Shown here piece by piece: positions 10,031 to 64,000 of a stretch of 64,000 nt of DNA. Position numbers and translations under genes: made by a program. Position 1 is the first letter of the stretch. Every line of letters begins with the position of its first letter. The notes under the pieces were generated by a model, which was not told the origin of the DNA, did not search any database, and was given only the letters and a program-made list of their open reading frames with translations. Origin of the DNA: Streptacidiphilus rugosus AM-16 (GTDB lineage: Bacteria > Actinomycetota > Actinomycetes > Streptomycetales > Streptomycetaceae); NCBI RefSeq assembly GCF_000744655.1, contig NZ_JQMJ01000004.1, forward strand, positions 744,001 through 808,000. The letters are read 5' to 3'.

Positions 10031-10032
10031 TC

Positions 10033-11675: not shown

Positions 11676-11731
11676 GTCATAACACGTAACCCTTTCAGCG
11701 ACAAGTTCCACCTGTCGCCTATTGGGTGACT
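11676..11731 (-). promoter_or_regulatory. hsp20-1 promoter with RheA-like operator
   Basis: On the minus strand TTGTCG (11704-11699) and TATGAC (11681-11676) are 17 nt apart. Immediately upstream lies TGTCGCC-N5-GGTGACT (11713-11731), which matches the published RheA box TGTCATC-N5-GATGACA in spacing and most bases. A second dyad, GCGACA-N9-TGTCGC (11698-11718), overlaps the -35. Heat-labile repression by RheA is the expected control. Confidence 0.6.
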
Positions 11732-11738
11732 CGGATGG

Positions 11739-12098
11739 TCAGGCGTCCTGAGGGAACAGGGCATAAGTGCCGGTGGCCTTCAGGAGTCGGGTCACCGGGG
11801 GCGGGGTGCCGCGCAGCTTCAGCCGGCGCCCGAGTTCGGCGGCATGGTTGCGGGCGGCGATCAGCGTCCCGAGCGCGGCGCAGTCGGCGAACGTCACCCG
11901 CGTCAGGTCCACCACCACGCCGCCGGGATGCGACTCCAGCTCACGCTGTAGTCGGGCCCGCAGAGCAGGCGTGGTGGCCCAGTCGAGCTCACCTGCGGCG
12001 CGCACCACTCCCATCCCCGCGCCGCCGTTTGGTCGGCGGTTTCGGCGGGAGTGTGGGTCGAGGGAGCGCCGCCGGGGCATCGTTGCCTGGGGACTCAT
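11739..12098 (-). CDS. STAS-domain protein (anti-sigma-antagonist-like)
   Basis: ATG 12098 overlaps the hsp20-2 stop as ATGA, so translation is coupled; 119 residues. After a basic leader the STAS fold begins at VVRAAGELDWATTPALRARL and includes VVVDLTRVTFADCAALGTLI. In anti-anti-sigma factors this loop carries DSxG with the serine that the anti-sigma kinase phosphorylates; here it reads DCAA, so that Ser is Cys. Such a protein could bind an anti-sigma factor without being switched off by phosphorylation. Partner unknown. Confidence 0.8.
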   Translation of the reverse strand: MSPQATMPRRRSLDPHSRRNRRPNGGAGMGVVRAAGELDWATTPALRARLQRELESHPGGVVVDLTRVTFADCAALGTLIAARNHAAELGRRLKLRGTPPPVTRLLKATGTYALFPQDA

Positions 12099-12538
12099 GC
12101 CGCTGCGGGAACGGCCTGGCCGGACTCGTCCGCCGCCCGGTGCGAGCGACTGTCCTGCCCGGCGTGGACGGTGATCGTGCGGCGGCGGGAGGCCTGGGCG
12201 ATGGGGACGGTCAGGGTCAGGACGCCGTCGGCCAGGTGGGCCTGGATGCGGGACGCGTCCAGGGTGTCGGCCAGCTGGATCCGGCGTTCGAGCACCCCGT
12301 GCGGCCGCTCGGCGACCTGTGCGGGGGCTCCCTGCCCGCGCGGGGCGGGACGGCGCTGCGTCCGCACGGTCACCATCTGACCGTGCGCCTCGAGGTCGAT
12401 CGCCTCGATCGGGATGCCGGGCAGGTCGAGGGCGATCACGAAGCGATCGGTCTCGCGCCAGGCGTCCATCGGGATCGGCCTCGGTCGTGCCCCGGATCCG
12501 GGGGGCGCCTGGTGGTTCACCGCAGTGCGCATGGACAT
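12095..12538 (-). CDS. Hsp20/alpha-crystallin small heat-shock protein (copy 2, HSP18-type)
   Basis: ATG 12538 follows GGAGG; 147 residues. The alpha-crystallin domain runs ~27-125 (RFVIALDLPGIPIEAIDLEA, then LADGVLTLTVPIAQ). It differs widely from copy 1, so this is not a recent duplication. It is divergent from rheA, the same arrangement as hsp18-rheA in Streptomyces albus, and shares the intergenic RheA operator. The STAS gene is its downstream operon partner. Confidence 0.95.
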   Translation of the reverse strand: MSMRTAVNHQAPPGSGARPRPIPMDAWRETDRFVIALDLPGIPIEAIDLEAHGQMVTVRTQRRPAPRGQGAPAQVAERPHGVLERRIQLADTLDASRIQAHLADGVLTLTVPIAQASRRRTITVHAGQDSRSHRAADESGQAVPAAA

Positions 12539-12605
12539 CGTCGGACACCTCCGGTCCGGGCAGGTCTCTTTCGGGGTTCGCACCGGTGTGGTGCGGACGA
12601 CAACT

Positions 12606-12634
12606 GTTGTAGCATGTCGTCTAGGCGATGACAA
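12606..12634 (-). promoter_or_regulatory. hsp20-2 promoter overlapped by RheA box
   Basis: On the minus strand TTGTCA (12634-12629), a 17-nt spacer and TACAAC (12611-12606) form a good promoter. The RheA box TGTCGTC-N5-GATGACA (12615-12633) lies across the -35 and spacer and differs from the S. albus hsp18 operator by one base in the arms. A small palindrome ACAACTGTTGT (12600-12610) covers the -10. Confidence 0.8.
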
Positions 12635-12661
12635 ACACTGGGTCAGCGAAAGAGTGACGAT

Positions 12662-13345
12662 ATGGATGTGCAGGATCCCGACCGGGCCGCGGGGGTGGGC
12701 CCGGCTTCGTTCCTGGCCGCAGCTGCGGCGCTGGGCATGATGGACGCCGCCGCCCGAACCGCCCGCCACGCCCCCGCCGACACCAACACGCAGGACGACC
12801 CGCGGCAGGCACTGGCGGCGCTGATGACGCTGCGTCACGTGCGGGAAGAACTCGCGGGCTGGGAGACCGGACTGATCGAAACCGCCCGCACCGCAGGGGC
12901 CACCTGGGCCGACCTCGCCGAACCCCTGGGAGTCCAGAGCCGGCAGGCCGCAGAGCGCCGCTACCTGCGCCTGCGCCCCAACGCCGACGCGGGCACCGTT
13001 GCCGGCAGCACCGGCGAGCAACGCGTCCAGGCCGCCCGCGACCAGCGCGCCGCCGACCGCGCGGTCACCACCTGGGCCCGCGACAACGCCGCCGACCTGC
13101 GGCGCCTCGCCGGGCAGATCGGCGCCCTCGACGACCTCGGAGCCGGCGCCGCCCCCGCGATAGAGCGCCTGCTGGACGCCCTCGGTGACAACGACCCGGC
13201 CCGTCTCCTCGCTCCCCTCGCCGAAGCCCGCCCCCTCCTGGAAGCTGACCACCCGAGGATCGCCGACCGCCTCGACGAACTCACCGCCCGCACGGACCGA
13301 CTGCGCGCCGACAGCGACCGCCAACGCCGCACCCCCACACCATGA
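12662..13345 (+). CDS. rheA: HSP18 transcriptional regulator RheA
   Basis: The 227-residue protein matches the streptomycete HSP18-regulator family: residues ~48-105 (ALMTLRHVREELAGWETGLI, TWADLAEPLGVQSRQAAERR, YLRLRP) form an HTH, and the remainder is helical (AADRAVTTWARDNAADLRRL). RheA is a repressor whose own conformation senses temperature; it binds the dyad before hsp18 and releases it on heating. Divergent placement against hsp20-2 with the operator between supports the call. The ATG is preceded by GCGAAAGAG. The next gene overlaps it by 4 bp. Confidence 0.8.
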   Translation: MDVQDPDRAAGVGPASFLAAAAALGMMDAAARTARHAPADTNTQDDPRQALAALMTLRHVREELAGWETGLIETARTAGATWADLAEPLGVQSRQAAERRYLRLRPNADAGTVAGSTGEQRVQAARDQRAADRAVTTWARDNAADLRRLAGQIGALDDLGAGAAPAIERLLDALGDNDPARLLAPLAEARPLLEADHPRIADRLDELTARTDRLRADSDRQRRTPTP

Positions 13346-13722
13346 CCACCCCCACGACCGATGTGACCGGCGAAGCACTCCACACCGTGGACCCGTTCAC
13401 CACCGGCAGCCTGACCGCGCTCACCTGGTTCCTGCGCGACCGCGTTCGCGACGCTCACGCGGCCGGGCACCCGGGCGCCCAGCAGTTGCAGGACAGCGTG
13501 GAGGACGCGGCGCGAGGCATCCTCACCTACGTCGACCAGGCGGCCCGTACCCCCGACCCGCAGGCGATCGCCCCCGCACGGGTCCGCGCCCACGCGTTGT
13601 GGACCGGGCTCGAGACCGCCGCAAGCTTCTGGCACGACCACCCCGCCCATCCCGCCCACGCTCGCCCCGCGGACCCGCGCAGCGCCTGGCGCGATCCCGC
13701 CCGCTACACCACCGCCCGCTGA
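13342..13722 (+). CDS. Hypothetical protein coupled to rheA
   Basis: ATGA overlap with the rheA stop; 126 residues, mostly helical, with TVDPFTTGSLTALTWFLRDR near the N-terminus and a His/Pro-rich tail. No known fold is recognised. Translational coupling suggests a role tied to RheA or the heat-shock response. Confidence 0.6.
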   Translation: MTTPTTDVTGEALHTVDPFTTGSLTALTWFLRDRVRDAHAAGHPGAQQLQDSVEDAARGILTYVDQAARTPDPQAIAPARVRAHALWTGLETAASFWHDHPAHPAHARPADPRSAWRDPARYTTAR

Positions 13723-13771
13723 CAGCAACCAGTGCGACGACGCGTTGTCGTCCCCGACCCCCGCCGACGCC

Positions 13772-14233
13772 ATGACTCCAGCCAACCTCCAGCAACTGCT
13801 CATCGAGCGTGCCCCGACCATTCCCCGCATCACCGACGCCGGCAAGCGCGACGACGACAGCCCCTACGGACTGACCGTCACCCTGGCCAGCGGCGGCCAG
13901 GTGTGGTGGGCCATCACCGGTGCCAGCGGACCCGCCCCTGCAGCAGATGCCGTCTCAGGGGAGGCGTTGGAGGTGCCGGATCTTACGGGTCCATCGGTCC
14001 CTGTGGCCCTGGTCGAGCAGGCATTGGTCGCCACGGCGGTCGGCGCCGACGACCCGACCGGCGGGGTACTGCGTGCCGACCGGTACAGCATCCGCCCGAA
14101 CCCGCCCGCGGTCCGGTACGGCGCGACGCTCGAGTGCCGCGACGGCTGGAAACTCTTCCTGTCCTGCTACGGCACCGCGCGCCACGGCCACGCCCGCCCC
14201 GAAAAGCCCTACCAGCCCCTCAGCCACATCTGA
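13772..14233 (+). CDS. Hypothetical protein (DUF-type, alpha/beta)
   Basis: From ATG 13772 the product has 153 residues; a TTG at 13745 in the same frame is an alternative. The sequence contains LTVTLASGGQVWWAITGASG, ECRDGWKLFLSCYGTARHGH and VPVALVEQALVATAVGADD, consistent with a soluble alpha/beta protein. No family or role recognised. It lies between the rheA operon and htpG on the same strand. Confidence 0.5.
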   Translation: MTPANLQQLLIERAPTIPRITDAGKRDDDSPYGLTVTLASGGQVWWAITGASGPAPAADAVSGEALEVPDLTGPSVPVALVEQALVATAVGADDPTGGVLRADRYSIRPNPPAVRYGATLECRDGWKLFLSCYGTARHGHARPEKPYQPLSHI

Positions 14234-14282
14234 TCGCACCCCGCGACCCCGACAGCCCACCCTCACGAAGGAGACAGCCCCC

Positions 14283-16232
14283 GTGGCCGGTACGACCGAG
14301 ACCCTGGAGTTCCAGGCGGAGACCCGCCAGCTCCTGCAACTGGTGATCCACTCGATCTACTCGAACAAGGACATCTTCCTGCGCGAGCTGATCTCCAACG
14401 CCTCCGACGCCCTCGACAAGCTCCGCCTGGAGTCCCTCACCCGCACCGACCTCGACGCATCCGACCTGCAGATCACCCTGGAAGTCGACCAAGATGCCCG
14501 CACCCTGACCGTCCGGGACAACGGCGTCGGCATGACAAGGGACGACGTCGTCGACCTCATCGGCACGATCGCCAAATCCGGCACCGCGAGCCTTCTCGCG
14601 AAGATCAAGGAAGCCAAGGACGCCGACGCGGCGCAGCATCTGATCGGGCAGTTCGGCGTCGGCTTCTACTCCGCGTTCATGGTCGCCGACAAGGTCACCC
14701 TGCACACCCGACGCGCCGGCACCGACCAGGGCACGATGTGGGAGTCCGACGGTGAGGGCACGTACACCATCGCCGACGCCGAGGGTCTGCCCGCCGGTAC
14801 CGCCGTCACCCTTCACCTCAAGGCGGAGGACAGCGAGGACGGACTGGGTGACTACCTGGCCGCCTGGAAGATCCGCCAGATCGTCAAGCAGTACTCCGAC
14901 TTCATCCGCTGGCCCATCCGCATGGCCACCGAACCCACCACCACCGAGGCGGCCGAAGTCGCCTCGGGCGCCGAGGGCGAGTCCCAGGCCAAGGCCGTGG
15001 GTGCGCTGGAAACGCTGAACTCGATGAAGGCGCTGTGGGCCCGGTCACGCAGCGAGGTGACCGAGGCCGAGTACAGCGAGTTCTACCAGCAGATCAGCCA
15101 CGACTGGGAGCCCCCGGCCGAGACGATCCACATGCGGGCGGAGGGCACCTTCGAGTACGAGGCGCTGCTGTTCCTCCCGTCCCGCGCCCCGTTCGACCTG
15201 TTCTCCCGCGACACCAAGCGCGGTGTGCAGCTGTACGTCAAGCGGGTGTTCATCATGGACGACTGCGACGCGCTGATGCCGAACTACCTGCGCTTCGTCA
15301 AGGGCGTCGTCGACGCCCACGACCTGTCCCTGAACGTGTCGCGGGAGATCCTGCAGCACGATCGGCAGATCACCGCCGTGCGCCGGCGTCTGGTCAAGAA
15401 GGTCCTCGGCGCGGTCAAGGACATGCAGGCCACCCGGACTGAGGACTACACGAAGCTGTGGGAGCAGTTCGGGCGGGTGATCAAGGAAGGGCTGATCGAG
15501 GACCGCGACAACACCGACGCACTGCTGGAGCTGGTCTCCGCCGCTTCGACCAACGATCCGGTCGAGACGACCACGCTGCGCGACTACGTCTCCCGCATGA
15601 AGGACGGCCAGAACACCATCTACTACCTGACGGGCGAGAACCGGGCGACCGTGGAGCACTCCCCGCACATGGAGGCCTTCGCCGCCAGGGGCTACGAGGT
15701 CCTCATCCTCACCGACCCCGTGGACGAGGTCTGGACCGAGCAGGTCCCCTCCTTCGACGGCCACCGCTTCCAGTCCATCGCCAAGGGCCAGGTCGACCTC
15801 GACCAGACCGACGACGAGAGCGACGAAACGAAGGCGGCCAAGGCCCAGCAGGAGCAGGACTACGCCGCACTCCTCACCTGGCTGCAGACCACGCTCGCCG
15901 AGCACGTCAAGCAGGTCCGCCTCTCCACCCGCCTCACCACCTCCGCCGCCTGTCTGGTCGGCGACGCCCACGACCTGACCCCCACCCTGGAGAAGATGTA
16001 CCGGGCCATGGGCCAGGACCTCCCGAGCGTGAAGCGGATCCTCGAAATCAACCCCACCCACCCGCTGGTCACCGGCCTTCGTGAGGCCCACGGCGCGAAC
16101 CCGGACGATCCGGCGGTCGCCGAGGTTGCAGAACTGGTCCACGGCGGCGCACTCCTGGCCGAAGGCGGGGACCTGCCCGACCCCGCCCGCTTCACCCGTC
16201 TCCTCACCGACCACCTCACCAAAGCCCTGTAA
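14283..16232 (+). CDS. htpG: HtpG, bacterial Hsp90 chaperone
   Basis: GTG 14283 follows GAAGGAGA; 649 residues, normal length for HtpG. The GHKL ATPase domain is intact: FLRELISNASDALDKLR, DNGVGM, and the lid GQFGVGFYSAFMVADKVT. The middle domain holds the catalytic-loop Arg region (LNVSREILQHDRQI), and the C-terminal dimer domain follows. It refolds client proteins downstream of DnaK in the cytosol and belongs with the Hsp20 and J-domain proteins here. A strong hairpin follows the stop. Confidence 0.97.
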   Translation: MAGTTETLEFQAETRQLLQLVIHSIYSNKDIFLRELISNASDALDKLRLESLTRTDLDASDLQITLEVDQDARTLTVRDNGVGMTRDDVVDLIGTIAKSGTASLLAKIKEAKDADAAQHLIGQFGVGFYSAFMVADKVTLHTRRAGTDQGTMWESDGEGTYTIADAEGLPAGTAVTLHLKAEDSEDGLGDYLAAWKIRQIVKQYSDFIRWPIRMATEPTTTEAAEVASGAEGESQAKAVGALETLNSMKALWARSRSEVTEAEYSEFYQQISHDWEPPAETIHMRAEGTFEYEALLFLPSRAPFDLFSRDTKRGVQLYVKRVFIMDDCDALMPNYLRFVKGVVDAHDLSLNVSREILQHDRQITAVRRRLVKKVLGAVKDMQATRTEDYTKLWEQFGRVIKEGLIEDRDNTDALLELVSAASTNDPVETTTLRDYVSRMKDGQNTIYYLTGENRATVEHSPHMEAFAARGYEVLILTDPVDEVWTEQVPSFDGHRFQSIAKGQVDLDQTDDESDETKAAKAQQEQDYAALLTWLQTTLAEHVKQVRLSTRLTTSAACLVGDAHDLTPTLEKMYRAMGQDLPSVKRILEINPTHPLVTGLREAHGANPDDPAVAEVAELVHGGALLAEGGDLPDPARFTRLLTDHLTKAL

Positions 16233-16244
16233 CCCACCGTCGGG

Positions 16245-16278
16245 TGCGGCCGGCCGCGGGGTTCGCCGGCCGGCCGCA
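16245..16278 (+). terminator. Strong hairpin after htpG
   Basis: TGCGGCCGGCCG (16245-16256) and CGGCCGGCCGCA (16267-16278) form a perfect 12-bp stem with a 10-nt loop 12 nt after the htpG stop. There is no T-run. Confidence 0.7.
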
Positions 16279-16422
16279 ACCGGCCCGACAAGCCACGACG
16301 GGCCGCCGGACCGTGTGCGCCGCGCCCGCTCCCACGCCGGCGCACACACAACCCAGCACTCGGCACCCTGAACGGAACCGGCCGCTGCCGACGGCCACCG
16401 ACACCACCACGGAGAGCGAAAC

Positions 16423-17064
16423 GTGTACCAGTACACCGACCGCAAGAACCGCACCCTGGCCGACCGCGTCGACGACGTGGCAGCGCGCCGCCCGAGCCAC
16501 GGCACCGAGCAGGACAAGACGGCCGCAACCGCCCTGCTCGCGGACATGCTCCAGGCCGCCGCGAAGCACGGCATCAACCTGGACAACCTCGACATGGTCA
16601 CCGACCTGCCGGGCGGCTGCTACCGTGCGGTCTCGAAGAACAACGATCTGGACGAACGCATCAACGCCGCCGCCGCCCGGCGCGCCGTCCCCGGCACCGA
16701 ACAGGACAAGGCCGCTGCGACGGCTCTGCTCACCGACATGCTCCAGGCCGCCGCGAAGCACGGCATCACGCTCGACACCTTCGACTGGGTCACCGACCTC
16801 CCCGGAACCTGCTACCGCGCCGTCGCCCGGCACCGCGAACTGACCGCACGCATCAACGAAGCCGCCGAACGCCACAGCACCCCCAGCACCGAGGAAGACA
16901 AGGCCGCCGCGACGGCTCTGCTCGCGGACATGCTCCAGGCCGCCGCGAAGCACGGCATCAACCTCGACGCCTTCGACTGGGTCACCGACCTCCCCGGCGG
17001 CTGCTACGCCGCCGTCGCCGCCAGGCACCGGAACCGAGCCGTGCAATGGGCCACAGCCAGCTGA
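16423..17064 (+). CDS. Unknown protein built of three ~63-residue repeats
   Basis: GTG 16423 follows ACGGAGAGCG; 213 residues. Three successive units, roughly residues 26-90, 91-153 and 154-213, each contain a DK-AATALL-DMLQAAAKHGI helix pair, a LD-FDWVTDLPG turn and a C-Y-AV ending. The units are very similar at DNA level, so they arose by recent tandem duplication. Each keeps one Cys after the LPG turn, and the first unit has DMVTDLPGGC in place of DWVTDLPGGC. No known domain is recognised; a repeat scaffold or binding protein is possible. It stands between htpG and the RbpA gene, with no gene in 17065-17299. Confidence 0.7.
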   Translation: MYQYTDRKNRTLADRVDDVAARRPSHGTEQDKTAATALLADMLQAAAKHGINLDNLDMVTDLPGGCYRAVSKNNDLDERINAAAARRAVPGTEQDKAAATALLTDMLQAAAKHGITLDTFDWVTDLPGTCYRAVARHRELTARINEAAERHSTPSTEEDKAAATALLADMLQAAAKHGINLDAFDWVTDLPGGCYAAVAARHRNRAVQWATAS

Positions 17065-17299
17065 GCCGAGCGGTCGGCCGTCCACGCTCGCCGTGCACTG
17101 CCGCCTTTCGCCCCGCGACGCGCGGCCTGGCATGCGCGTCGGTGGGGAGTCCCGCTGCGCGGACCGAGCACCTCACACCGGACCGATCCTCCAGGTCAGG
17201 TGCGCGTCCAGCCTGCGGCCGCCCACCCTTGGGGCGCCCGGACTCGCTCATGCCGTCGACCGACGATGACGCACGCGCTCGCCACAGTCGCCCGATAGG

Positions 17300-17638
17300 T
17301 CAGCTGGTCCCGCGCAGCTTGGCCAGTGCCTCGTTCAGCAGGGTCTCGCCGTCTTCTTGGGAGCGGCGCTGCCGGACGTAGCCCATGTGAGTCATGTAGG
17401 GGGCGTGGCCTTCGGCGACGGGCACGTCGTCGCGGTCCCGCCCGGCGGGCAGTCCGCACCGCGGGCAGTCCCACGTCTGCGGGACCTCCGCCTCGATCGC
17501 GAAGTTCCGCTGCGTCTGGTGCCCGTTGCTGCACCAGAACGACACCGTCGTGCGCGGCGCGAGGTCACCGCGCTCCGGCTCGCCCAGCGGCCCGGACCCG
17601 ATCCGCGCGCCCCTGATGTTGCTGCTTCCCCGCGCCAC
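17300..17638 (-). CDS. rbpA: RbpA-family RNA polymerase-binding protein
   Basis: GTG 17638 follows GAGGGAGAG; 112 residues, slightly shorter than the housekeeping RbpA. The core domain (DLAPRTTVSFWCSNGHQTQR, then TWDCPRCGLPAG, with CxxxH and CxxC as possible zinc ligands) is followed by the sigma-interacting domain THMGYVRQRRSQEDG and LLNEALAKLRG. RbpA binds the beta-prime subunit and group 1/2 sigma factors and stabilises the open complex. A paralogue beside two stand-alone rpoA genes suggests that accessory transcription machinery is encoded here. It is divergent from rpoA-1. Confidence 0.88.
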   Translation of the reverse strand: MARGSSNIRGARIGSGPLGEPERGDLAPRTTVSFWCSNGHQTQRNFAIEAEVPQTWDCPRCGLPAGRDRDDVPVAEGHAPYMTHMGYVRQRRSQEDGETLLNEALAKLRGTS

Positions 17639-18100
17639 GATGCTCTCCCTCGGCCATGATGTCCACGCCTCGGATGTGCATGGGATAAGCCCAGCGTACG
17701 GGCACCCTCCGGTAGAGCATTCCCCGGCCAGCCCCTGCACACTCGACGGACCGCCCGGGACGGAAGCTCAGGTCACTCCGGCCGGGGGCAGCGGCACACC
17801 GGGTCCGGCGGTCAGGGCTCGGCCGGCGACTGGGAACGGCGGCTGCGAATACCGCGGTGAGCCCGGGCGCCACTGGGGACGGTCGTCGCGGTGATGGTCA
17901 TACTGGACCGCCAGCAGGCGAAGCTGTTGCCCGGCGTTCCGGCCTCCCCAGGGTGCCCTAGGTACGGCCCGGATGGTGGAAGCGAGCAACTGCTCCACCG
18001 CCTCGTGCCCGCGCAGCTTCGACTCGCCGTGCTACAGCAGTGACTCCGGGCTGACATCGAGGCCGAGGCCGTCGGGCGGTGCGGGCCTCTTGTGACGTCG
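17639..18100. other. Divergent gap between rbpA and rpoA-1
   Basis: About 460 bp with no convincing gene; it must carry the rbpA promoter. The leader of rpoA-1 from 18101 belongs to the duplicated segment. Confidence 0.4.
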
Positions 18101-18166
18101 ATTACCGATACCGTGCGGGTCTACGGCGTCAGATAGTGGGCGCCAAAATCTGGAGGCACCAGCCCC

Positions 18167-19177
18167 ATGCTGATTGCTCAGCGTCCTTCGCTGACCGAAG
18201 AGGTCGTCGACGAGTTCCGCTCCCGGTTCGTGATCGAGCCGCTGGAGCCGGGCTTCGGCTACACCCTCGGCAACTCGCTCCGCCGTACGCTCCTCTCCTC
18301 GATCCCCGGCGCTGCTGTCACCAGCATCCGGATCGACGGTGTCCTGCACGAGTTCACCACCGTGCCGGGCGTCAAGGAGGACGTCACCGACCTCATCCTG
18401 AACATCAAGCAGCTGGTCGTCTCCTCGGAGCACGACGAGCCGGTCGTGATGTACCTGCGCAAGCAGGGTCCGGGTCTGGTCACCGCCGCCGACATCGCGC
18501 CCCCGGCCGGTGTCGAGGTGCACAACCCCGAGCTGGTCCTCGCCACGCTGAACGGCAAGGGCAAGCTGGAGATGGAGCTGACCGTCGAGCGCGGTCGCGG
18601 CTACGTCTCCGCCGTGCAGAACAAGCAGTCCGGCCAGGAGATCGGCCGTATCCCGGTCGACTCCATCTACTCGCCGGTGCTGAAGGTCACCTACAAGGTC
18701 GAGGCCACGCGTGTCGAGCAGCGCACCGACTTCGACAAGCTGATCGTCGACGTCGAGACCAAGCCCGCCATGCGTCCGCGCGACGCGATGGCGTCGGCCG
18801 GTAAGACCCTGGTCGAGCTGTTCGGTCTCGCGCGCGAGCTCAACGGCGACGCCGAGGGCATCGACATGGGCCCCACCCCGGCGGAAACCGCGTTCGCCGC
18901 CGACCTGGCATTGCCGATCGAGGAGCTGGAGCTCACGGTCCGCTCCTACAACTGCCTCAAGCGCGAGGGCATCCACACCGTGGGTGAGCTCGTGGCCCGC
19001 TCCGAGGCCGACCTGCTCGACATCCGCAACTTCGGTATGAAATCGATCGACGAGGTCAAGGCGAAGCTGGCTGACATGGGCATGGGCCTCAAGGACAGCC
19101 CTCCCGGATTCGACCCCATCGCCGCCGACGCCTTCGGCAATGCGGACGCGAATTTCCTCGAGACCGAACAGTACTGA
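18167..19177 (+). CDS. rpoA: RNA polymerase alpha subunit, stand-alone copy 1
   Basis: ATG 18167 follows TCTGGAGG; 336 residues, full length. The N-terminal assembly domain (residues 1-~225, with [20 protein letters not shown]) and the C-terminal DNA/activator-binding domain ([20 protein letters not shown], then [18 protein letters not shown]) are complete. It is not in the ribosomal rpsD-rpoA-rplQ context, so it is presumably additional to the housekeeping gene. In the alphaCTD the usual NFGAKSID reads NFGMKSID, next to residues that contact UP-element DNA, and the linker has ELNGDAEG for ELNIDAEG. Confidence 0.97.
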
Positions 19178-19188
19178 ACGCTGCGCCG

Positions 19189-19228
19189 GGTCGCGCGGTC
19201 CGGAAGACGCCTCCCGGACCGCACGACC
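19189..19228 (+). terminator. rpoA-1 terminator hairpin
   Basis: GGTCGCGCGGTCCGG and CCGGACCGCACGACC pair over 15 bp with one mismatch, 11 nt after the stop. The same hairpin with a shifted mismatch follows rpoA-2. Confidence 0.7.
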
Positions 19229-19282
19229 AGGTTGCGGGAAAGACCACCCGCTCCAGGATCTCCGGCTAGGCCCAGAAGGTGA

Positions 19283-19564
19283 CCGGCGACCGGAAGCTGC
19301 GCAAGGCAAGAAGAAGGCCCCGCCACCAGGCTGCCCGCCCTATACACCGCCGCACATGCCTGCCCCGACGGACACCTCGGTCACGCCCTGGACGACGGAG
19401 GCGACCTCCAGGCCGCCGCGTTCTGCTCCGTGCCCGTGGACCAGGTCGTCGAGCACATCGACGTCCTGGTCGCCTCCGGCTGGCTCACCGGTACCGCCAT
19501 CCGCGACGGCCGCCTGTCTGGTCGGCTCACCGAACGCGTCTTGCTGCTTGGCGGGCTCCTGTAG
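19283..19564 (+). pseudogene. Fragment of a small winged-helix-like protein
   Basis: An open frame from a TGA at 19280 to a TAG at 19562 encodes LYTAAHACPDGHLGHALDDG, DLQAAAFCSVPVDQVVEHID and VLVASGWLTGTAIRDGRLSG. That looks like the C-terminal two thirds of a small HTH-type streptomycete protein, but no start codon or ribosome site exists at its beginning. It probably lost its 5' end when the rpoA segment was inserted beside it. Confidence 0.4.
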
Positions 19565-19594
19565 TGCCTGCCGCAGGCACGGCAGGCACTACAG
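19559..19594. terminator. Bidirectional hairpin with 14-bp arms
   Basis: CTGTAGTGCCTGCC (19559-19572) and GGCAGGCACTACAG (19581-19594) form a perfect 14-bp stem around an 8-nt loop. It overlaps the stop codons of the plus-strand fragment and of the minus-strand CBS gene, so it probably ends transcription from both sides. Confidence 0.8.
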
Positions 19595-19993
19595 GTTCCT
19601 GCCACCGGTGCGGCGGGCGGTCAGAACACCCAGGAGGAGGCCGTCGTCGTCGACGACAGGCCATACCCGCAGGTGCTTGGATCGCATCGCTCGTGTGGCG
19701 AGTTCGAGATCCATGGCGGGCCGGGCGAAGGGCCCGCGCTGGTGGGTGATGTCGCGGATGGCGGTGCGCTCGGTGTACCGCGAGCGTGCCATGAAGACGT
19801 GGAGGTGCGACCGGCTGACCAGGCCTTCGCAGCGGCCAGCCTCGTCGTGGACCAGCAGGTACGCAACATGGGGGTCGTAGAAGAGGTCGCCTGCCTGGTC
19901 GAGGGTGGTGTCGTCGGCGACTTGGTTCGGATGCGGTGCCATGGCGTCGGCCACGGTGAGGAGCGTGCCTGCGGGGGGAGGTCGGCTGGCCAC
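19589..19993 (-). CDS. CBS-pair protein (Hrp1-like)
   Basis: GTG 19993; 134 residues made up of two CBS motifs: TVADAMAPHPNQVADDTTLD to GLVSRSHLHVFM, and a second one ending VWPVVDDDGLLLGVLTARR. Stand-alone CBS pairs bind adenine nucleotides; one of them, Hrp1, is strongly induced by hypoxia in mycobacteria. The ribosome site is weak (CAGGTG). It is related to the second CBS gene at 21842 (both contain SRYTER or SWYTERT near the centre). Confidence 0.85.
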   Translation of the reverse strand: MASRPPPAGTLLTVADAMAPHPNQVADDTTLDQAGDLFYDPHVAYLLVHDEAGRCEGLVSRSHLHVFMARSRYTERTAIRDITHQRGPFARPAMDLELATRAMRSKHLRVWPVVDDDGLLLGVLTARRTGGRNL

Positions 19994-20247
19994 GATGGCA
20001 CCTGAGCCCGTCCCCGAGCGGCTTTGCCGCCGCCCGGACCTTTGGTGATCCCAGGACGATGCCGGAACGAGGACCGGATACGAAGTGCCCTGGGCGCCTC
20101 CCAGGCTACTCCCGGTCGGGAGGGGGAGCTGCGGGCAGTTTGAGGCGTACTGTGGAGGTAGCCGAGTAAGCGTCTTCCCATCAGCACTTCGCTGGTGCCG
20201 CCCTGGGTCATCATAGGTTCGCTCGCGGACCGGACGGGCGGCCTGCC

Positions 20248-20688
20248 ATGGCGCCGGCTCCTCTCTCCTTTCCTCCTATGCGCGTGGACGCGCTCGGCGC
20301 CCCGCTGTTGCCCCGACTGCTGCTGGAACCGACGATGTCGCGGACCGGGATGTTCGACGGCGCCTGGTGGCCGCACTCGAACCGGATCCGGGTCGAACTG
20401 CCGGACCTGATCACTGCCCTGACCGCCCACCTGGGCCCCATCGCGCGAGTGGGTCTGGACATCGTGCCTTGGGACGACGTTCCGCGCACCGTGATGGCCG
20501 ACGGGCGCCTGATCCGGATCAGCTGGTTCGCCAGCAGTGACCGGACCATCAGCATCACCCGCGGCTTCCAGGACCACTTCCTGCTTTTGGTCATCCCACC
20601 CAGCACCGACGCGCGCACCGCCTCGGACGCCATGACCGCGGCCGCCGCACAGCACAACCACACCGCCGCCGGCGAACTACTGCCGTAG
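20248..20688 (+). CDS. DUF5994-family protein
   Basis: 146 residues with the family hallmarks LLLEPTMSRTGMFDGAWWPH, ELPDLITALTAHLGPIARVG and ITRGFQDHFLLLVIPPSTDA. The function of the family is unknown; it is widespread in streptomycetes. No clear ribosome site precedes ATG 20248 or the alternative ATG 20278. Convergent with the next minus-strand genes. Confidence 0.75.
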   Translation: MAPAPLSFPPMRVDALGAPLLPRLLLEPTMSRTGMFDGAWWPHSNRIRVELPDLITALTAHLGPIARVGLDIVPWDDVPRTVMADGRLIRISWFASSDRTISITRGFQDHFLLLVIPPSTDARTASDAMTAAAAQHNHTAAGELLP

Positions 20689-20767
20689 CGACCCGTGCGG
20701 CCATGTTGTCCGGCGCGTGGGCCACGCACCGGTAGGCGCTGGACCGGCGAGGCCCGCAAGCTGTTGA

Positions 20768-21028
20768 TCACTGCGGGGCGGCAGCACAGGTCTCGGAGCA
20801 GAAGCGGTGGCGGGCACTGCTGCTCCAACGCTCGTGCGCGGTGCCGCAGCGAGGGCATCGGGTGACCCCGCCTACGGTGGGATCGATCAGGTCCAGAGTG
20901 TTGAGAAGGGCCCGGCAGTCCTCCGCGTTGTCCGCCTGCGAGGCCACGAGTAGGCGGGCCTGTTGGCGGGTGTGTCGGTCGTGAGCGGTGAAGAGGTCGT
21001 AGTCGCTCGAGCCGTGGGGTTTCTGCAT
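20768..21028 (-). CDS. Small zinc-ribbon protein
   Basis: ATG 21028 follows AAGGGAAGG; 86 residues. The C-terminal TRCPRCGTAHERWSSSARHR and FCSETCA give two CxxC pairs, a zinc ribbon; the N-terminal half is a single amphipathic helix (RHTRQQARLLVASQADNAED). A regulator or RNA-binding role is possible but not shown. Confidence 0.6.
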   Translation of the reverse strand: MQKPHGSSDYDLFTAHDRHTRQQARLLVASQADNAEDCRALLNTLDLIDPTVGGVTRCPRCGTAHERWSSSARHRFCSETCAAAPQ

Positions 21029-21093
21029 GGTGGACCTTCCCTTGCGTGCTGCTGTCGGATCTTCGTTCACGAGTTCTCGCGTACAGGGCTCGC

Positions 21094-21363
21094 TCAGGGG
21101 GCCGCGGTGGGCCTCTGTGGTTGCGGCGTGCGGTCACCAGTCCCGGCGACCACGGGCAGCCAGTCCTGCCCGGGCTGATCGGCGGCGAGTGCGGTGGCGG
21201 CGGTGAGCGCGAGCGTGGCGTGAACCTGCGCTTTCAACAGGTCCGTCTGTGACGGTGCCCAGTGGTGTGTGCCGCCAGAGCCGCGGTCACGGTCTGCGGC
21301 GGTTTTCTGCGGGCCGGCGAGCAGGCGTTCAGCCGACAGGTAGTGCTCGGGGCCGGTGGCCAC
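21094..21363 (-). CDS. Small helical hypothetical protein
   Basis: GTG 21363 follows GGAGA; 89 residues. GPEHYLSAERLLAGPQ and LLKAQVHATLALTAATALAA match a common streptomycete small-protein pattern, where a helix hairpin is often found next to phage or regulatory genes. No known role. The C-terminus is Pro-rich. Confidence 0.55.
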   Translation of the reverse strand: MATGPEHYLSAERLLAGPQKTAADRDRGSGGTHHWAPSQTDLLKAQVHATLALTAATALAADQPGQDWLPVVAGTGDRTPQPQRPTAAP

Positions 21364-21428
21364 GGCGGGTCTCCTCGATGCTCGGTGCTTCGGGTTGTTG
21401 ACTGTCCGGTTGCTCGTCCGACGCTGCT

Positions 21429-21845
21429 TCAGCGTGCGCCGTCGCGGATGTCCCAGCTGTCGCAGCCCGGCAGCTGGGGTGGCTTGAGCTTCTCCAGGTG
21501 AGCGCGCAGCCAGGCGATGCGGCGCTCGGCGCCTGCGCCGCGGATGCCGAAGGTGATGCTGTTTCGGCGTCCGCGGTTTCGGCATTCACGGTCGCCGGCA
21601 GCTTCGTCGAAGGTGTCGAGGACCCGCTCGTACAGCAGCGCGTCCTCGTTGCCGCACGGGGCCAGGTTGTCCACGGTCAGGAAGCGCCACCCTCGGGCGA
21701 TGTCGCCGGCCTCCGCCGCGATGAGCTGCTCGGCCAAGCGCTGAGCGTCGTCCCGGCGGGTCACCGCGCTGCCGCCGTACGCCGGGCTGGCGGCGTTCCG
21801 GCCGCGTTGCGGCCTGCCTTCCCGTCGTGTGTCGGCCCAGGTCAT
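21429..21845 (-). CDS. Hypothetical protein coupled to CBS gene
   Basis: ATG 21845 overlaps the CBS stop as ATGA; 138 residues. RDDAQRLAEQLIAAEAGDIA, ARGWRFLTVDNLAPCGNEDA and AERRIAWLRAHLEKLKP suggest a soluble helical protein. Not recognised. Coupling to a CBS sensor suggests a shared role. Confidence 0.5.
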   Translation of the reverse strand: MTWADTRREGRPQRGRNAASPAYGGSAVTRRDDAQRLAEQLIAAEAGDIARGWRFLTVDNLAPCGNEDALLYERVLDTFDEAAGDRECRNRGRRNSITFGIRGAGAERRIAWLRAHLEKLKPPQLPGCDSWDIRDGAR

Positions 21846-22231
21846 GGCCGGCTCTGGAGGCGGAGGAGGCCGACGGCGTGGCCGTCGTGGTCGACAACCG
21901 GCCAGGAGGCCAGGCCGCGCGAGCGCATGTGGGCAGCGGCGGTGTCGGCTGCCATGTCGGTGGTGGCGAACGGGGCGCGGTCGAGTGGGGCGTTGCGGAC
22001 CGGGGTGCGTTCGGTGTACCAGGAGCGGGACCGGAACGGCGTGAGGTGCTGGCGGGTCAGCAGCCCGGCGCATCGGCCTTCGTCGTCTCGGACCAGGACG
22101 TGGTCCGCTCCAGAGCTGTGCAGGATGTCCATCGCGGCATCGACGGTGACGTCGTCGCTGATCTGCAGGTCCGGGCGTGTCATGAGGTCGCCGACCGTGG
22201 CGGTGGTGGTGGGTTCGATGGTGAGGGAAAT
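21842..22231 (-). CDS. CBS-pair protein, probable ATT start
   Basis: The first ATG (22183) would cut off the opening strand of CBS motif 1. The frame stays open upstream through ATVGDLMTRPDLQISDDVTV to an ATT at 22231 that has AAGGAG seven bases before it, so ATT is the likely start; 129 residues. Two CBS motifs follow, the second ending GLASWPVVDHDGHAVGLLRL. It resembles the CBS gene at 19589. Rare ATT starts are used for autoregulated genes; a sequencing change of ATG is the alternative. Confidence 0.75.
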   Translation of the reverse strand: MSLTIEPTTTATVGDLMTRPDLQISDDVTVDAAMDILHSSGADHVLVRDDEGRCAGLLTRQHLTPFRSRSWYTERTPVRNAPLDRAPFATTDMAADTAAAHMRSRGLASWPVVDHDGHAVGLLRLQSRP

Positions 22232-56107: not shown

Positions 56108-57115
56108 ATGCTGATTGCTCAGCGTCCTTCGCTGACCGAAGAGGTCGTTGACGAGTTCCGCTCCCGGTTCGTGATCGAGCCGCTGGAGCCGGGCTTCGGC
56201 TACACCCTCGGCAACTCGCTCCGCCGTACGCTCCTCTCCTCGATCCCCGGCGCTGCTGTCACCAGCATCCGGATCGACGGTGTCCTGCACGAGTTCACCA
56301 CCGTGCCGGGCGTCAAGGAGGACGTCACCGACCTCATCCTGAACATCAAGCAGCTGGTCGTCTCCTCGGAGCACGACGAGCCGGTCGTGATGTACCTGCG
56401 CAAGCAGGGTCCGGGTCTGGTCACCGCCGCCGACATCGCGCCCCCGGCCGGTGTCGAGGTGCACAACCCCGAGCTGGTCCTCGCCACGCTGAACGGCAAG
56501 GGCAAGCTGGAGATGGAGCTGACCGTCGAGCGCGGTCGCGGCTACGTCTCCGCCGTGCAGAACAAGCAGTCCGGCCAGGAGATCGGCCGTATCCCGGTCG
56601 ACTCCATCTACTCGCCGGTGCTGAAGGTCACCTACAAGGTCGAGGCCACGCGTGTCGAGCAGCGCACCGACTTCGACAAGCTGATCGTCGACGTCGAGAC
56701 CAAGCCCGCCATGCGTCCGCGCGACGCGATGGCGTCGGCCGGTAAGACCCTGGTCGAGCTGTTCGGTCTCGCGCGCGAGCTGAACATCGACGCCGAGGGC
56801 ATCGACATGGGCCCCACCCCGGCGGAAACCGCGTTCGCCGCCGACCTGGCATTGCCGATCGAGGAGCTGGAGCTCACCGTCCGCTCCTACAACTGCCTCA
56901 AGCGCGAGGGCATCCACACCGTGGGTGAGCTCGTGGCCCGCTCCGAGGCCGACCTGCTCGACATCCGCAACTTCGGCGCGAAGTCGATCGACGAGGTCAA
57001 GGCGAAGCTGGCCGACATGGGCATGGGCTTCAAAGACAGCCCGCCCGGATTCGACCCGACCACAGCCGCCTTCGGCGACGCCGACGCAAGCTTCCTCGAG
57101 ACCCAACAGTACTGA
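56108..57115 (+). CDS. rpoA: RNA polymerase alpha subunit, stand-alone copy 2
   Basis: ATG 56108 follows TCTGGAGG; 335 residues, complete. The protein equals copy 1 over the first ~225 residues. It has the usual ELNIDAEG linker and NFGAKSID in the C-terminal domain, and a different end ([20 protein letters not shown]). Neither copy is beside rplQ or rpsD. Two accessory alphas could form homo- or heterodimers with each other and with the housekeeping alpha. Confidence 0.97.
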
Positions 57116-59277: not shown

Positions 59278-60759
59278 TCACAGGTCGTTGCCGGCGTAGG
59301 AGAGGTTGAAGCTTTTGTTGGTTAGGGGGAAGTCGGGGACGATCGTGTCGGCCAGGGCGACGGGCAGGGCGGGCCAGTTGAAGAAGGACGGGTCGACGGG
59401 TTTCACGCGGGCCAGGGTGCCGTTGGCGGCGAGCTCGACGCGCGTGGTGATGGTGCCGCGCCAGCCCTCGACCATCCCGATCCCGGCGCCCGGCCCGTCA
59501 GAGCTGAGCGGGACCATGAAAGCCCCCGGTTCCAGGTGCGGGGTGAGCTGGTTCAGCAGGGCCAGGGAGACGTCGATCTCCTGGGCGCGGATCTGGAAGC
59601 GTGCGAGCACGTCCCCACTGTCCAGGGTCGGTACGTGGAGGGCGGGTCCGAGGTCGAGGGCGGGGTGCATGGTACGGGCGTCGAGGGCCAGGCCGCTGGC
59701 GCGGCCGACGTAGCCGAGGCATCCGAGCTCGCGGGCGGCCTGTTCCGGGAGCACGGCGGTGCCGGTGAACCGGTCCTTGACGACGGCGTGGCCGAGGGCG
59801 AGTCGGGTCAGGTCGCGGATGTCGTCCCCGGTTCGGCGCAACTGCGCGGGTGTGGGGAGGGCGAGCAGGCGGGCGCCGCCGGGAATCACGCCGCCGCGCA
59901 GCAGCCGGTGCCCGGTGATCTGCTGGCCCAGGCGCAGGAGTTGTTCGCGGATGCGCTGGGCGTGGGCGTTGAGGACGCCGTGGCCGACGTCGTTGCACAG
60001 GGCGCCGAGGTCGGTGACGTGGTTGTGGACGCGCTCCAGTTCGAGCAGCAGGGCCCGCGCCGCCCGTGCGGCCTCGGGGACCTGGGTGTTTGTGGCGTGT
60101 TCGATGGCTTGGCAGTAGGCCAGGGCGTGGCCGACGGCGGTGTCGCCGCTGATGCGTTCCGCCAGTGGCAGGCCGCGGTCGATGGCCCGGCCTTCGAAGA
60201 GTTTCTCGATGCCCTTGTGGACGAACCACAGCCGGGCCTTCAGTTTCAGGATGGTTTCCCCGACGACGGAGAAGCGGAAGTGTCCGGGTTCGGTGAGGCC
60301 GGCGTGGACGGGGCCGACGGGGATCTCGTAGACGCCGTCGCCTTCGACTTCCAGGAAGGGGTAGGGGCCCTCGGGTTCGGCGAACGGTGGTGGCGGTCCG
60401 GCGTCCGGGCGGCCGGGGTACCAGCCCTGGGGCCAGTGGTAGTGCCGCACCAGCCTGCGTGGCAGGGGGTGGCCGAGGAGTTCGACGCCGTGCAGGTCGT
60501 GCATCTCCCGCTCGAACCGTCCGGCCGGGAAGGACAGGTGCGCCAGCGTCGACAGCTGGGGTTTGGCCGGGTCGAGGCGGACGTGGAGTTCGGTGCGCCG
60601 GTCCGGGGGGCCTGCGACGAACAGGTAGACGATGCGGACGGCGTCGGCGTCGTGGTGCGCGGCGACCAGGGCGAGGCGTTCGCCCCGGGAGAGTCGCTCG
60701 GCTGCGGTGTCGGCGAGTTCTCCGACACCGACCTCGTACACGGTCGTGGTGGGGGTCAT
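59278..60759 (-). CDS. HycE/HyfG-like large subunit without Ni-binding cysteines
   Basis: ATG 60759 follows GGAGG; 493 residues. Residues 1-~125 are NuoC-like (FPAGRFEREMHDLHGVELLG), and ~140-493 NuoD-like (GPVHAGLTEPGHFRFSVVGE). In group 4 NiFe hydrogenases the metal is held by RxCGxC and DPCxxC. Here these positions read ERISGD (201-206) and NKSFNLSYAG at the very end, without cysteines. The subunit therefore cannot hold a NiFe site, and H2 chemistry is unlikely. Last gene of a coupled operon. Confidence 0.85.
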   Translation of the reverse strand: MTPTTTVYEVGVGELADTAAERLSRGERLALVAAHHDADAVRIVYLFVAGPPDRRTELHVRLDPAKPQLSTLAHLSFPAGRFEREMHDLHGVELLGHPLPRRLVRHYHWPQGWYPGRPDAGPPPPFAEPEGPYPFLEVEGDGVYEIPVGPVHAGLTEPGHFRFSVVGETILKLKARLWFVHKGIEKLFEGRAIDRGLPLAERISGDTAVGHALAYCQAIEHATNTQVPEAARAARALLLELERVHNHVTDLGALCNDVGHGVLNAHAQRIREQLLRLGQQITGHRLLRGGVIPGGARLLALPTPAQLRRTGDDIRDLTRLALGHAVVKDRFTGTAVLPEQAARELGCLGYVGRASGLALDARTMHPALDLGPALHVPTLDSGDVLARFQIRAQEIDVSLALLNQLTPHLEPGAFMVPLSSDGPGAGIGMVEGWRGTITTRVELAANGTLARVKPVDPSFFNWPALPVALADTIVPDFPLTNKSFNLSYAGNDL

Positions 60760-60761
60760 GG

Positions 60762-62261
60762 TCAGTGGCCTCCGATGAGCGCGGCGGCGGTGTCCAGCAG
60801 GTGGGTCAGCGGGCCGGTGGAGACACCGAGTGCCGTGCAGGCCAGCAGCCCTGCCAGCAGAGGGAATCCGGCGGTGGCGCCGATGCGGTGCGGGAGGGTG
60901 GCGGCGCCGGGACCTGGCTGTGGGGTGCCGAGGAGCATCCGTGCGGTGCGCGCGGCCAGGGCGGCGAACGCGGCCAGAACCAGCAGCAGGGCGGCGGTGA
61001 CGGGCCAGCCCATCGCCGCGGTGAAGCCGGCCCGGGTGATGGCGATCTCGGAGGCGAAGAGGCTGAACGGCGGCATCCCCAGTAGCGCGATCACGGCGAG
61101 GCCGAAGGCGGCGCCAAGTCCTGGCGCTCGGACCAGGAGCGCGCGCAGGCGGCCGATGCGGCTGGTCTGCTGCCAGGCGAGGATCTGTCCGGCGGAGCAG
61201 AACGCCACGGATTTCGCGAGACCGTGGCCGGCGATGTGGAGCAGGACCGCCGCGATCGCCAGCCGGCTGCCGATCGCGGTGCCGAGCGCGATCAGGCTCA
61301 TGTGCTCCATGCTCGAATAGGCCAGCATGCGTTTGTAGTCGCGCTGGCCGAGCAGGATCGCCGCCGCGAGCGCCAGGGTGAGCAGGGCGGCGATCGTCAG
61401 GAGCAGACGCAGGTAGTGGGGGCCGAGGGCGGCGTCGCAGATGGTCTTGTAGCGCAGCAGTGCGCTGAAGGCGACGGAGAGCAGGACGCCGGACATGAGG
61501 GCGGAGACGGGGGCGGGTGCCTGGCTGTGGGCGTCGGGTAGCCAGGCGTGCAGCGGGATGAGTCCGGCTTTGGCGCCGAAGCCGATGACGATCAGTCCGA
61601 TGCCGATCCGTGTGACGTCGGGGTCCAGCCGGGACGCGTTCGCGGCCAGGGTGGGCCAGTCCAGGGCGGCGGCCTCGGAGAGGCCGGCGTGTCGGGCGGC
61701 GTAGTAGATCAGGACGGTGCCCAGGAACGCGAGGGCAATGCCGACGGAGCAGATGACGACGTACTTCCAGGCTGCCTCCACACTCGTGCGGGTGCGGCGG
61801 TGGCCGACCAGGAACGCGGTGACGATGGTGGTGGCCTCGATCGCGACCCACAGGATGCCGAGGTTCTCCGCCAGCACCCCCAGCGTCATCGCGGCCAGGA
61901 ACCCCTGCACCAGGAGGCAGTAGCGGCGGGCCGTGCGCTCGCTGGCCCGTTCCGCGGTGCGTTCGGCGGCCAGGTAGGTGGGTGAGGCGGCCACGGCGAT
62001 CAGCGCGACGGCGCCGACGACCAGCAGCAGCCACACCGTCAGGGCGTCCGCGCGCAGCAGATGCCCGGCCGCGCGCACGGGTCCGTGCACGGTGACGCGG
62101 GGCACCAGCAACACGGCACAGGTGAGGGTGACGGCGGGCGTGATGATCCCGGCCCAGTCGCCGAAGCGGCGGCGGTAGGGCAGCGGGAGGGCGTAGAAGG
62201 CGGCGCAGGCCAGCGGCGTGGCCACCGGGAGGACCAGCAGGAGCGAATCGGAAGAGGGCAT
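60762..62261 (-). CDS. HycQ/HyfF-like antiporter-type membrane subunit
   Basis: ATG 62261 overlaps the upstream stop (TGATG); 499 residues, about fourteen helices. The Mrp/NuoL-type core is present: GFGAKAGLIPLHAWLPDAHS, APAPVSALMSGVLL and YSSMEHMSLIALG, with the conserved Lys in the broken helix. It would form a proton or sodium channel in the membrane arm. Confidence 0.9.
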   Translation of the reverse strand: MPSSDSLLLVLPVATPLACAAFYALPLPYRRRFGDWAGIITPAVTLTCAVLLVPRVTVHGPVRAAGHLLRADALTVWLLLVVGAVALIAVAASPTYLAAERTAERASERTARRYCLLVQGFLAAMTLGVLAENLGILWVAIEATTIVTAFLVGHRRTRTSVEAAWKYVVICSVGIALAFLGTVLIYYAARHAGLSEAAALDWPTLAANASRLDPDVTRIGIGLIVIGFGAKAGLIPLHAWLPDAHSQAPAPVSALMSGVLLSVAFSALLRYKTICDAALGPHYLRLLLTIAALLTLALAAAILLGQRDYKRMLAYSSMEHMSLIALGTAIGSRLAIAAVLLHIAGHGLAKSVAFCSAGQILAWQQTSRIGRLRALLVRAPGLGAAFGLAVIALLGMPPFSLFASEIAITRAGFTAAMGWPVTAALLLVLAAFAALAARTARMLLGTPQPGPGAATLPHRIGATAGFPLLAGLLACTALGVSTGPLTHLLDTAAALIGGH

Positions 62262-62920
62262 CAGTCTCGGAGCTCCCGCATCGTGTCGAGGTCGGTGCCG
62301 CCGAAGGCTGCCTGGATGCGCAGCGCCAGGAGCTGCAGGACCAGGACGGCCAGGAGCAGGTCGAAGGAGACACCGAGTTCCAGGATCAGCGGGACGCCAC
62401 TGGTGGCCAGCAGGGCTACGGCGGTGATGCCGTTGTCCAGGAGCAGGAAGCCGACCATCTGCGCGACCGCGCGGCGGCGGGTGATCAGGGTGAAGAACCC
62501 GATCAGGACCACGGCGAAGCCGACCGGGATCGCCTCGGCGGCCGGTCCCGGCTCCAGGGCGACCAGCGGCTGGGCCGACGCGTAGGCCAGCAGGGTCAGC
62601 ACGGCCGCGAGCAACAGGGAGGCGGCGACGTTGACCAGGGGTTCGCTCTCGCGCTGCTGACCGGAGCGTTCCAGGGCGCGCCGCATCAGATACGGGAGGA
62701 GCCCGGCGCGCAGCGCCCCGATCCCGACCGCGACGCCGACGAGCACCCAGTGGTGCTGGCGGATGCCCAGGAGCACGCCGATACCGGCCAGGGCGACGCC
62801 CTGGAGGGCGAAGACGCGGACGATCGCACTCAGTTCGCGAAACCACAGCACCATGACCGCGGCGAGGAGGAACGCGCCGCAGGCCAGATCGAGGAACTGG
62901 GTGAACAGGGGCTGGTTCAC
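62261..62920 (-). CDS. HycP/HyfE-like membrane subunit
   Basis: GTG 62920; 219 residues, about seven helices. GFLLLDNGITAVALLATSGV and PLILELGVSFDLLLAVLVLQ match the NuoK-like C-terminal half of HyfE, with the membrane Glu. It starts 4 nt after the upstream stop. Confidence 0.85.
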   Translation of the reverse strand: MNQPLFTQFLDLACGAFLLAAVMVLWFRELSAIVRVFALQGVALAGIGVLLGIRQHHWVLVGVAVGIGALRAGLLPYLMRRALERSGQQRESEPLVNVAASLLLAAVLTLLAYASAQPLVALEPGPAAEAIPVGFAVVLIGFFTLITRRRAVAQMVGFLLLDNGITAVALLATSGVPLILELGVSFDLLLAVLVLQLLALRIQAAFGGTDLDTMRELRD

Positions 62921-62924
62921 AGGT

Positions 62925-63881
62925 TCAAGCTCCGGACAGGAAGTAGGAGGCGGTGACCGCCAGCAGCGCCAGCAGGAACGACCCGGCCAGCAGCTCCGGG
63001 ACACGGAACAAGCGCACCTTGGCCCAGAACACCTCCGCCGCGGCCAGACCCGCCCCGAGCACGGTCACCTTGACCGCCAGCAGCACCAGCGCCAGGAGCA
63101 GGGCGGGCCAGGAGCTGGTGGTGGCGATCCCCCAGGGGACGGCGAGGGTGGCGAGCAGGCCAAGCAGCACCGTCAGCCGCAGCTGGGCGCCGAACTCGAC
63201 CAGCGCCAGGTCGGGGCCCGCGTACTCCAGCACCATGGCCTCGTGAACCATCGTCAGCTCCAGGTGGGTGCTCGGGTTGTCCACCGGCAGGCGCCCCGCC
63301 TCAGCGATGGTCACCACGGCCAGCGCGACCAGGGCGAGGAGGCTGGAAGGGGAGGCGAGCCGGGCGGGCTCGTCGATCCGGCCCGCGACGATCGTGGCCA
63401 GGCCGGTGGACCCGGCCGGTATCGACAACGCGAGCACCGACAGCAGGATCGTCGGCTCCACCAGCGCGGCGATCGTCATCTCGCGAGAGGCGCCCATGCC
63501 GCCGAACGCGGTACCGGTGTCCAGTCCGGCCAGCGCGAGGGTGACCGTGCCCAGGGCCAGCAGCGCCACGACGACGATCAGGTCCCCGTGCGAGGCAGCC
63601 GGGGTCGTGACGGCCGCCAGAGGCAGCAGCGCCGCGACGAGCAGACCGGTCACGACCAGGACGAGCGGCGCGGTGCGGAACGCGGGCCCGCTGCCGGCCG
63701 GGGTGATGGGTTCCTTGCGCAGCAGCTTGCGCACGTCCCGCCACGGCTGCAGGACCCCGGCACCGGCGCGCCCCTCCATCCGGGCACGGACCTGCCGCAT
63801 GACGCCGGTCAGCAGCGGCGCACCGGCCACCACCAGCAGCAGCTGCGCGGCCAGCGCGACCACGCCGAAACCACTCAACAC
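62925..63881 (-). CDS. HycD/HyfC-like (NuoH-type) membrane subunit
   Basis: GTG 63881 follows GAAGGAGGAGG; 318 residues, eight helices. GASREMTIAALVEPTILLSV and EAGRLPVDNPSTHLELTMVH are the signature stretches of the hydrogenase-type NuoH homologue that joins the peripheral and membrane arms. First complete gene of the operon; the order and sizes match Rv0084-Rv0087 (hycD-P-Q-E) of M. tuberculosis. Confidence 0.92.
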   Translation of the reverse strand: MLSGFGVVALAAQLLLVVAGAPLLTGVMRQVRARMEGRAGAGVLQPWRDVRKLLRKEPITPAGSGPAFRTAPLVLVVTGLLVAALLPLAAVTTPAASHGDLIVVVALLALGTVTLALAGLDTGTAFGGMGASREMTIAALVEPTILLSVLALSIPAGSTGLATIVAGRIDEPARLASPSSLLALVALAVVTIAEAGRLPVDNPSTHLELTMVHEAMVLEYAGPDLALVEFGAQLRLTVLLGLLATLAVPWGIATTSSWPALLLALVLLAVKVTVLGAGLAAAEVFWAKVRLFRVPELLAGSFLLALLAVTASYFLSGA

Positions 63882-64000
63882 CCCTCCTCCTTCGGCGGAT
63901 CGGTCAGCACAAGGCATCCCCGTGGCGTTGTCCGGCCGTGACGCCGCCTGACCGCCACGCCGTCTGGCCGCACTGGATCTGCGGATGGCATCGCCGGGTT
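63875..64000 (-). CDS. C-terminal end of upstream gene (partial)
   Basis: An open minus-strand frame from the window edge ends in TGA at 63875-63877, overlapping the hycD-like start by 7 bp. The 41 codons read VLTDPPKEEG near the end. By analogy a HyfB-like antiporter subunit is expected here, but the tail is too short to identify. Confidence 0.4.
   Translation of the reverse strand, partial: NPAMPSADPVRPDGVAVRRRHGRTTPRGCLVLTDPPKEEGC

Follow-up and report, generated by a model that had tools for sequence, protein, structure and literature searches.

What drives a conserved complex that is built like an ion pump, carries one cluster and has neither an electron relay nor nickel? The question is raised by an operon at the right end of the window, a 64,000-nucleotide stretch of DNA from Streptacidiphilus rugosus AM-16 (C4:744001-808000 of a 9.0-Mb genome). 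Members of the family abound in actinobacteria, mycobacteria included: at least 577 loci with HycE relatives were counted in the genome collection, and actinobacteria account for all of the best 80. Our preferred answer, to which we give a probability of about one half, is a redox-coupled ion pump, i.e. a nickel-free, six-subunit complex of the hydrogenase-related (Ehr) kind that would run a reaction other than that of H2 through its one cluster.

The four genes that a sequence-only reading had described are all present where it placed them, on the minus strand (Table 1). The complete operon has six genes, and the right edge of the window cuts off HyfB and HycG, which were read in the stretch L006 (C4:799001-818000). 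Subunit names rest on Pfam and NCBIfam matches, the latter mostly below equivalog cut-offs. Judging from the DNA, the HyfC-like gene would start with the GTG at 63881, behind a GGAGGA site. E. coli HycE (7z0s_E) is the best solved relative of the HycE-like protein (2e-85), and the HyfC-like subunit matches 7z0s_D (6.5e-46). The model of the HycE-like protein (mean pLDDT 87.8) superimposes on 7z0s_E with a Z of 44.3 and an rmsd of 2.4 over 486 residues; the HycG model has a mean pLDDT of 70, and we draw no conclusion from it.

Table 1. Genes of the operon and the adjacent ArsR gene. Coordinates are those of the window unless L006 is given.
Feature	Coordinates	Strand	Basis and remarks
HycE-like large subunit	59278..60759	(-)	NuoC+NuoD fusion, 493 aa; Pfam PF00346, PF00329, PF00374
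HyfF/HycQ-like antiporter subunit	60762..62261	(-)	499 aa; PF00361; below-cut-off matches to NCBIfam models of hydrogenase 4 subunit F
HyfE/HycP-like membrane subunit	62261..62920	(-)	219 aa; below-cut-off match to NF008556 (NCBIfam, hydrogenase 4 membrane subunit)
HyfC/HycD-like (NuoH-like) subunit	62925..63881	(-)	~318 aa; PF00146
HyfB	last base of stop codon at 64000; gene at L006 9000-11030	(-)	gene itself outside the window
HycG small subunit	L006 11027-11518		outside the window; ORF and Pfam
ArsR regulator	L006 12104-12454		upstream of the operon and divergently transcribed, followed by SulP and PPOX (pyridoxamine-oxidase-like) genes

It had been claimed from the letters of the window that all four nickel-ligand cysteines of the large subunit are missing, and an alignment with E. 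coli HycE and HyfG and with L174, a nickel-bearing actinobacterial relative, bears this out. ERISGDT and NKSFNLSYAGNDL match, column for column, both cysteine pairs of E. coli HycE (DRVCGIC and SLDPCYSC); the same columns in L174 read GRACAAC and NKSFELCYACVDR. Residues S204, T207, S487 and G490 stand in place of the four ligands, and the two CxxC NiFe-binding motifs of group 4 [NiFe] hydrogenases are absent. None of 92 HycE family members has a cysteine at any of these positions: residue 204 is Ser in all of them, 207 is Thr or Ser, 487 is Ser in 91 and Thr in one, and 490 is Gly in 91 and Ala in one. The missing ligands are therefore neither a sequencing nor a frame error. The canopy aspartate, reported to be invariant across hydrogenases and complex I (PMC9474812), is Asn485 in 91 of the 92 relatives; the canopy arginine R434 is retained in 92/92 and Glu157 of the beta1-beta2 loop in 82/92. 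The chain stops at NKSFNLSYAGNDL, the former nickel motif, with no C-terminal maturation extension, so the protein is not a hydrogenase. Missing cofactor synthesis does not account for the loss of the site, since HypD and further NiFe hydrogenase large subunits are encoded in the genome. As far as sequence can tell, hydrogenase activity is contradicted.

The operon does have an electron-transfer subunit, since HycG carries one cluster. Its [4Fe-4S] cysteines (46, 49, 113 and 146) are retained in 80/80 sequences of the window's type (type A), and the proximal-cluster motif has the hydrogenase-type CxxC spacing. The extension of the locus to the right was only partly as expected: HyfB and HycG were found there, but ORFs and domains revealed no HycF/NuoI-type or other ferredoxin-type relay gene. 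A CxxCxxCxxxC scan of type A flanks gave one clear ferredoxin-type protein, in L115, nearly all loci having none; Fe-S relay genes of the HycB/HycF kind are absent from the locus and from the flanks of nearly all relatives. NuoE/F/G/I electron input is missing at the locus too, and the genome's single NuoI match above cut-off is found at C4:3624196. With the HycG cluster kept, no relay gene and no ferredoxin domain on HycG in type A, the complex has a single recognisable redox centre.

The ion path, on the other hand, is intact. The E-channel carboxylates of HyfC (E135, E187, D194, E201, E207 and E212) are each found in 86/86 relatives, as are Glu142 in TM5 and Lys231 in TM7 of HyfF, whose Glu405 in TM12 is found in 85/86. 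HyfB, like HyfF an antiporter-type subunit, retains E138 in 77/77 relatives, K221 in 78/78 and E405 in 78/78. In complex I, equivalent residues have been linked to coupling, and those of HycD to the function of formate hydrogenlyase (FHL) (PMC9474812). Since these residues are essentially invariant, ion translocation is the likely output of the complex. That the complex pumps ions with a driving force other than H2, as the sequence-only reading had suggested, is plausible: the ion path and one [4Fe-4S] cluster are kept, and the driving reaction is what we infer.

The operon can be placed among known systems by what it keeps and what it lacks. Its HycE, HycG, HyfB, HyfC, HyfE and HyfF are homologous to those of E. 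coli FHL and hydrogenases 3 and 4 (Hyc, Hyf), here without the nickel site, HycB/HycF/FdhF, HyfD and the maturation tail. The likeness to a mycobacterial locus, also proposed beforehand, is confirmed by the shared order ArsR-HycG-HyfB-HyfC-HyfE-HyfF-HycE and by HycE proteins that are 57-60% identical to ours and fall in the same clade. M. gastri, M. persicum and M. nebraskense lack the nickel cysteines and have an intact HycG cluster, as is the case here; M. tuberculosis Rv0081-Rv0087, where the annotation reads HycD/P/Q/E, is alike in ArsR, gene order and subunit set when judged through such mycobacterial relatives. In contrast to the mycobacterial locus, the ArsR gene here is divergent and adjoins a SulP transporter. 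The six-gene order next to an ArsR gene and the monophyletic HycE make the operon a member of the Rv0082-Rv0087 family, a placement made via the mycobacterial relatives. Rv0082-0087 is under the control of Rv0081, a hypoxia-response regulator of the ArsR type, and papers still call the locus a formate hydrogenlyase or a putative [NiFe]-hydrogenase (PMC6901956). A limited literature search found no published statement on the missing nickel cysteines of mycobacterial HycE, which does not imply novelty. The tuberculosis homologue is hence hypoxia-linked yet named after a reaction that the sequences of the family exclude; in a complex of hydrogenase-like build whose nickel centre and most electron wiring are gone, the name formate hydrogenlyase cannot fit the function.

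Ehr complexes, as far as the accounts of the 2013 work in PMC6349859 and PMC10284858 go, are group 4-like; they have antiporter-like subunits and lack the NiFe ligands. The earlier assignment to this kind stands: the nickel site is absent, and Mrp antiporter-like and NuoH-like membrane subunits are present. Compared with Ehr as described in those accounts, the operon has no ferredoxin-type relay subunit and a single cluster. By sequence criteria, then, the complex is an actinobacterial Ehr of the Rv0082-Rv0087 type; the Ehr kind has already been described, with its reaction unexplained, and this operon adds a member.

The HycE tree includes nickel-less complexes of the same phylum and no named Ehr (Marreiros) reference sequences. 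In it, the window's HycE forms one clade with its counterparts from mycobacteria, Frankia and Acidimicrobiaceae (100/100), and the sister of this clade is a group that we call clade D (100/96). Both nickel-less clades are nested with six-gene hydrogenases having intact nickel sites (100/99), and the family is separate from Nuo and from E. coli Hyc/Hyf; the order of the deepest splits is weak (83/48). Gene order around HycE is nearly fixed across relatives. Distribution is patchy, with 12 of 121 genomes in a family-level sampling carrying the complex at ~70% identity or above. The dN/dS values of 0.19-0.35 (NG86) indicate purifying selection and, together with residue conservation, rule out a decayed pseudo-complex. 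Broken copies do occur in relatives (L046 10743-12184, L047 11676-12813 and L045 11148-12618), the kinds of damage being an hycE interrupted by an IS110-like transposase, a deletion that joins hyfB and hycE, and an hycE with a broken frame. Neighbours conserved beyond ArsR (PPOX, STAS, SulP and PEP carboxykinase-like) are too patchy for a donor or substrate to be named from them.

Within this family the pocket motif NKSFNLSY(A/S)GND is common to L172/L173, type A and clade D, and the wiring differs. In L172/L173, HycG keeps the proximal cluster and is fused to a two-cluster ferredoxin. In clade D (L168, L170 and L180-L185), the HycG ligand positions read Thr/Cys/Asp/Asp in 6/6 genomes; nickel ligands and ferredoxin domain are missing, ion-path residues are retained, and L168 and L170 show the six-gene order of the window's operon. 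Clade D is accordingly a complex in which the sequences offer no recognisable redox cofactor. The series from L172/L173 through type A (one cluster) to clade D (none) provides natural variants of nearly the same pocket, with which the need for redox in coupling within the complex I superfamily can be tested. In type B (L048, L049, L050, L163 and L164), more distant than clade D, the proximal cysteines are mostly replaced by Asp, Glu and Ser; we rejected these as fully redox-free complexes, since a one-cluster ferredoxin domain is fused to the N-terminus of HycG. On the HycE tree, the proximal-cluster ligands were thus lost at least twice. L174, L175, L153 and L154 are nickel-bearing hydrogenase relatives. 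The same six subunits occur with an ArsR gene in L174 and L175, which likewise lack a relay subunit; the absence of the relay may therefore predate the loss of nickel.

Several functions could be assigned to such a complex. Taken at their annotation, the mycobacterial genes would encode an active [NiFe] hydrogenase or FHL; overall homology to FHL and a genome able to make the cofactor fit with this, but given the four ligands absent in 92/92, the canopy Asn, the missing maturation extension and HycB/HycF, and a genome with no over-cut-off match to the formate dehydrogenase alpha family, we lend it practically no credence. A reductase of sulfur compounds acting at the proximal cluster, as in MBS of Pyrococcus furiosus, is very improbable: in its favour, MBS is a relative of MBH that has no NiFe centre and pumps ions, yet it has three clusters, a shortened motif with three-Cys coordination of the proximal one and two of the four nickel cysteines left over (PMC7684303), whereas in type A the CxxC motif is complete, with four cysteines, and no nickel cysteine is left. 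It is also unlikely, if less so, that the old nickel pocket serves a quinone reductase like complex I. The HycE model has the same fold as NuoD and complex I has lost the same four cysteines (PMC7684303); nevertheless, the cluster motif is hydrogenase-type CxxC and not the tandem Cys of cluster N2, the quinone-site His and Tyr of the 49-kDa subunit align with Glu157 and Gly205, the canopy Asp is Asn, and NuoI is absent at the locus.

For the redox-coupled pump that we favour, we propose that a soluble donor would directly reduce or oxidise the cluster of HycG, on the side to which HycF docks in formate hydrogenlyase. The electron would pass to an acceptor, neither H2-related nor a classical quinone, in what used to be the NiFe pocket and is now remodelled (S204, D206, T207, H211, R434, N485, S487 and Y488), and the reaction would shift the loop bearing Glu157 and drive ions via HyfC to HyfF and HyfB, a loop-to-membrane coupling modelled on proposals for complex I, MBH and MBS. 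Against this pump stand a donor and an acceptor that are without a candidate, the replacement of the canopy Asp by Asn485, the missing quinone His and Tyr of complex I, the broken operons of some relatives, and clade D, which shares the pocket and the ion path yet has no cluster ligands, so that redox may not drive this family. The loss of these ligands in clade D makes a non-redox function a serious rival, and one that we regard as a real, if minority, possibility: the complex would be an ion transporter or ligand-gated antiporter, its hydrogenase-like arm having become a module for binding or sensing, with a [4Fe-4S] cluster that is either structural or a redox, NO or O2 sensor gating the membrane arm. 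The gene order of clade D and its lack of a ferredoxin domain, the lost proximal ligands of type B and the missing relay subunit of type A are in line with this, but the four cluster cysteines persist in 80/80 type A sequences, type B retains a ferredoxin domain, and clade D could rely on an undetected partner. Somewhat unlikely, in our view, is that coupling is no longer tied to an electron wire and the pocket binds or converts a small molecule, the type A cluster being a mere switch that clade D dropped. Such a wire-free complex, if true, would be a relative of complex I working without redox chemistry.

Elsewhere in the window there is a stress-type island (4413-22183) with Usp, two Hsp20, HtpG, a CLC channel with a CBS domain, CBS proteins and an F420H2-quinone-reductase-like protein. 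The window also carries two extra copies of rpoA, encoding RNA polymerase alpha, at 18167-19177 (+) and 56108-57115 (+). They lie 37 kb apart and are nearly identical (327/335), and a third copy at C4:3378578 is identical to the second at 320/335 positions. Three complete alpha subunits per genome are unusual.
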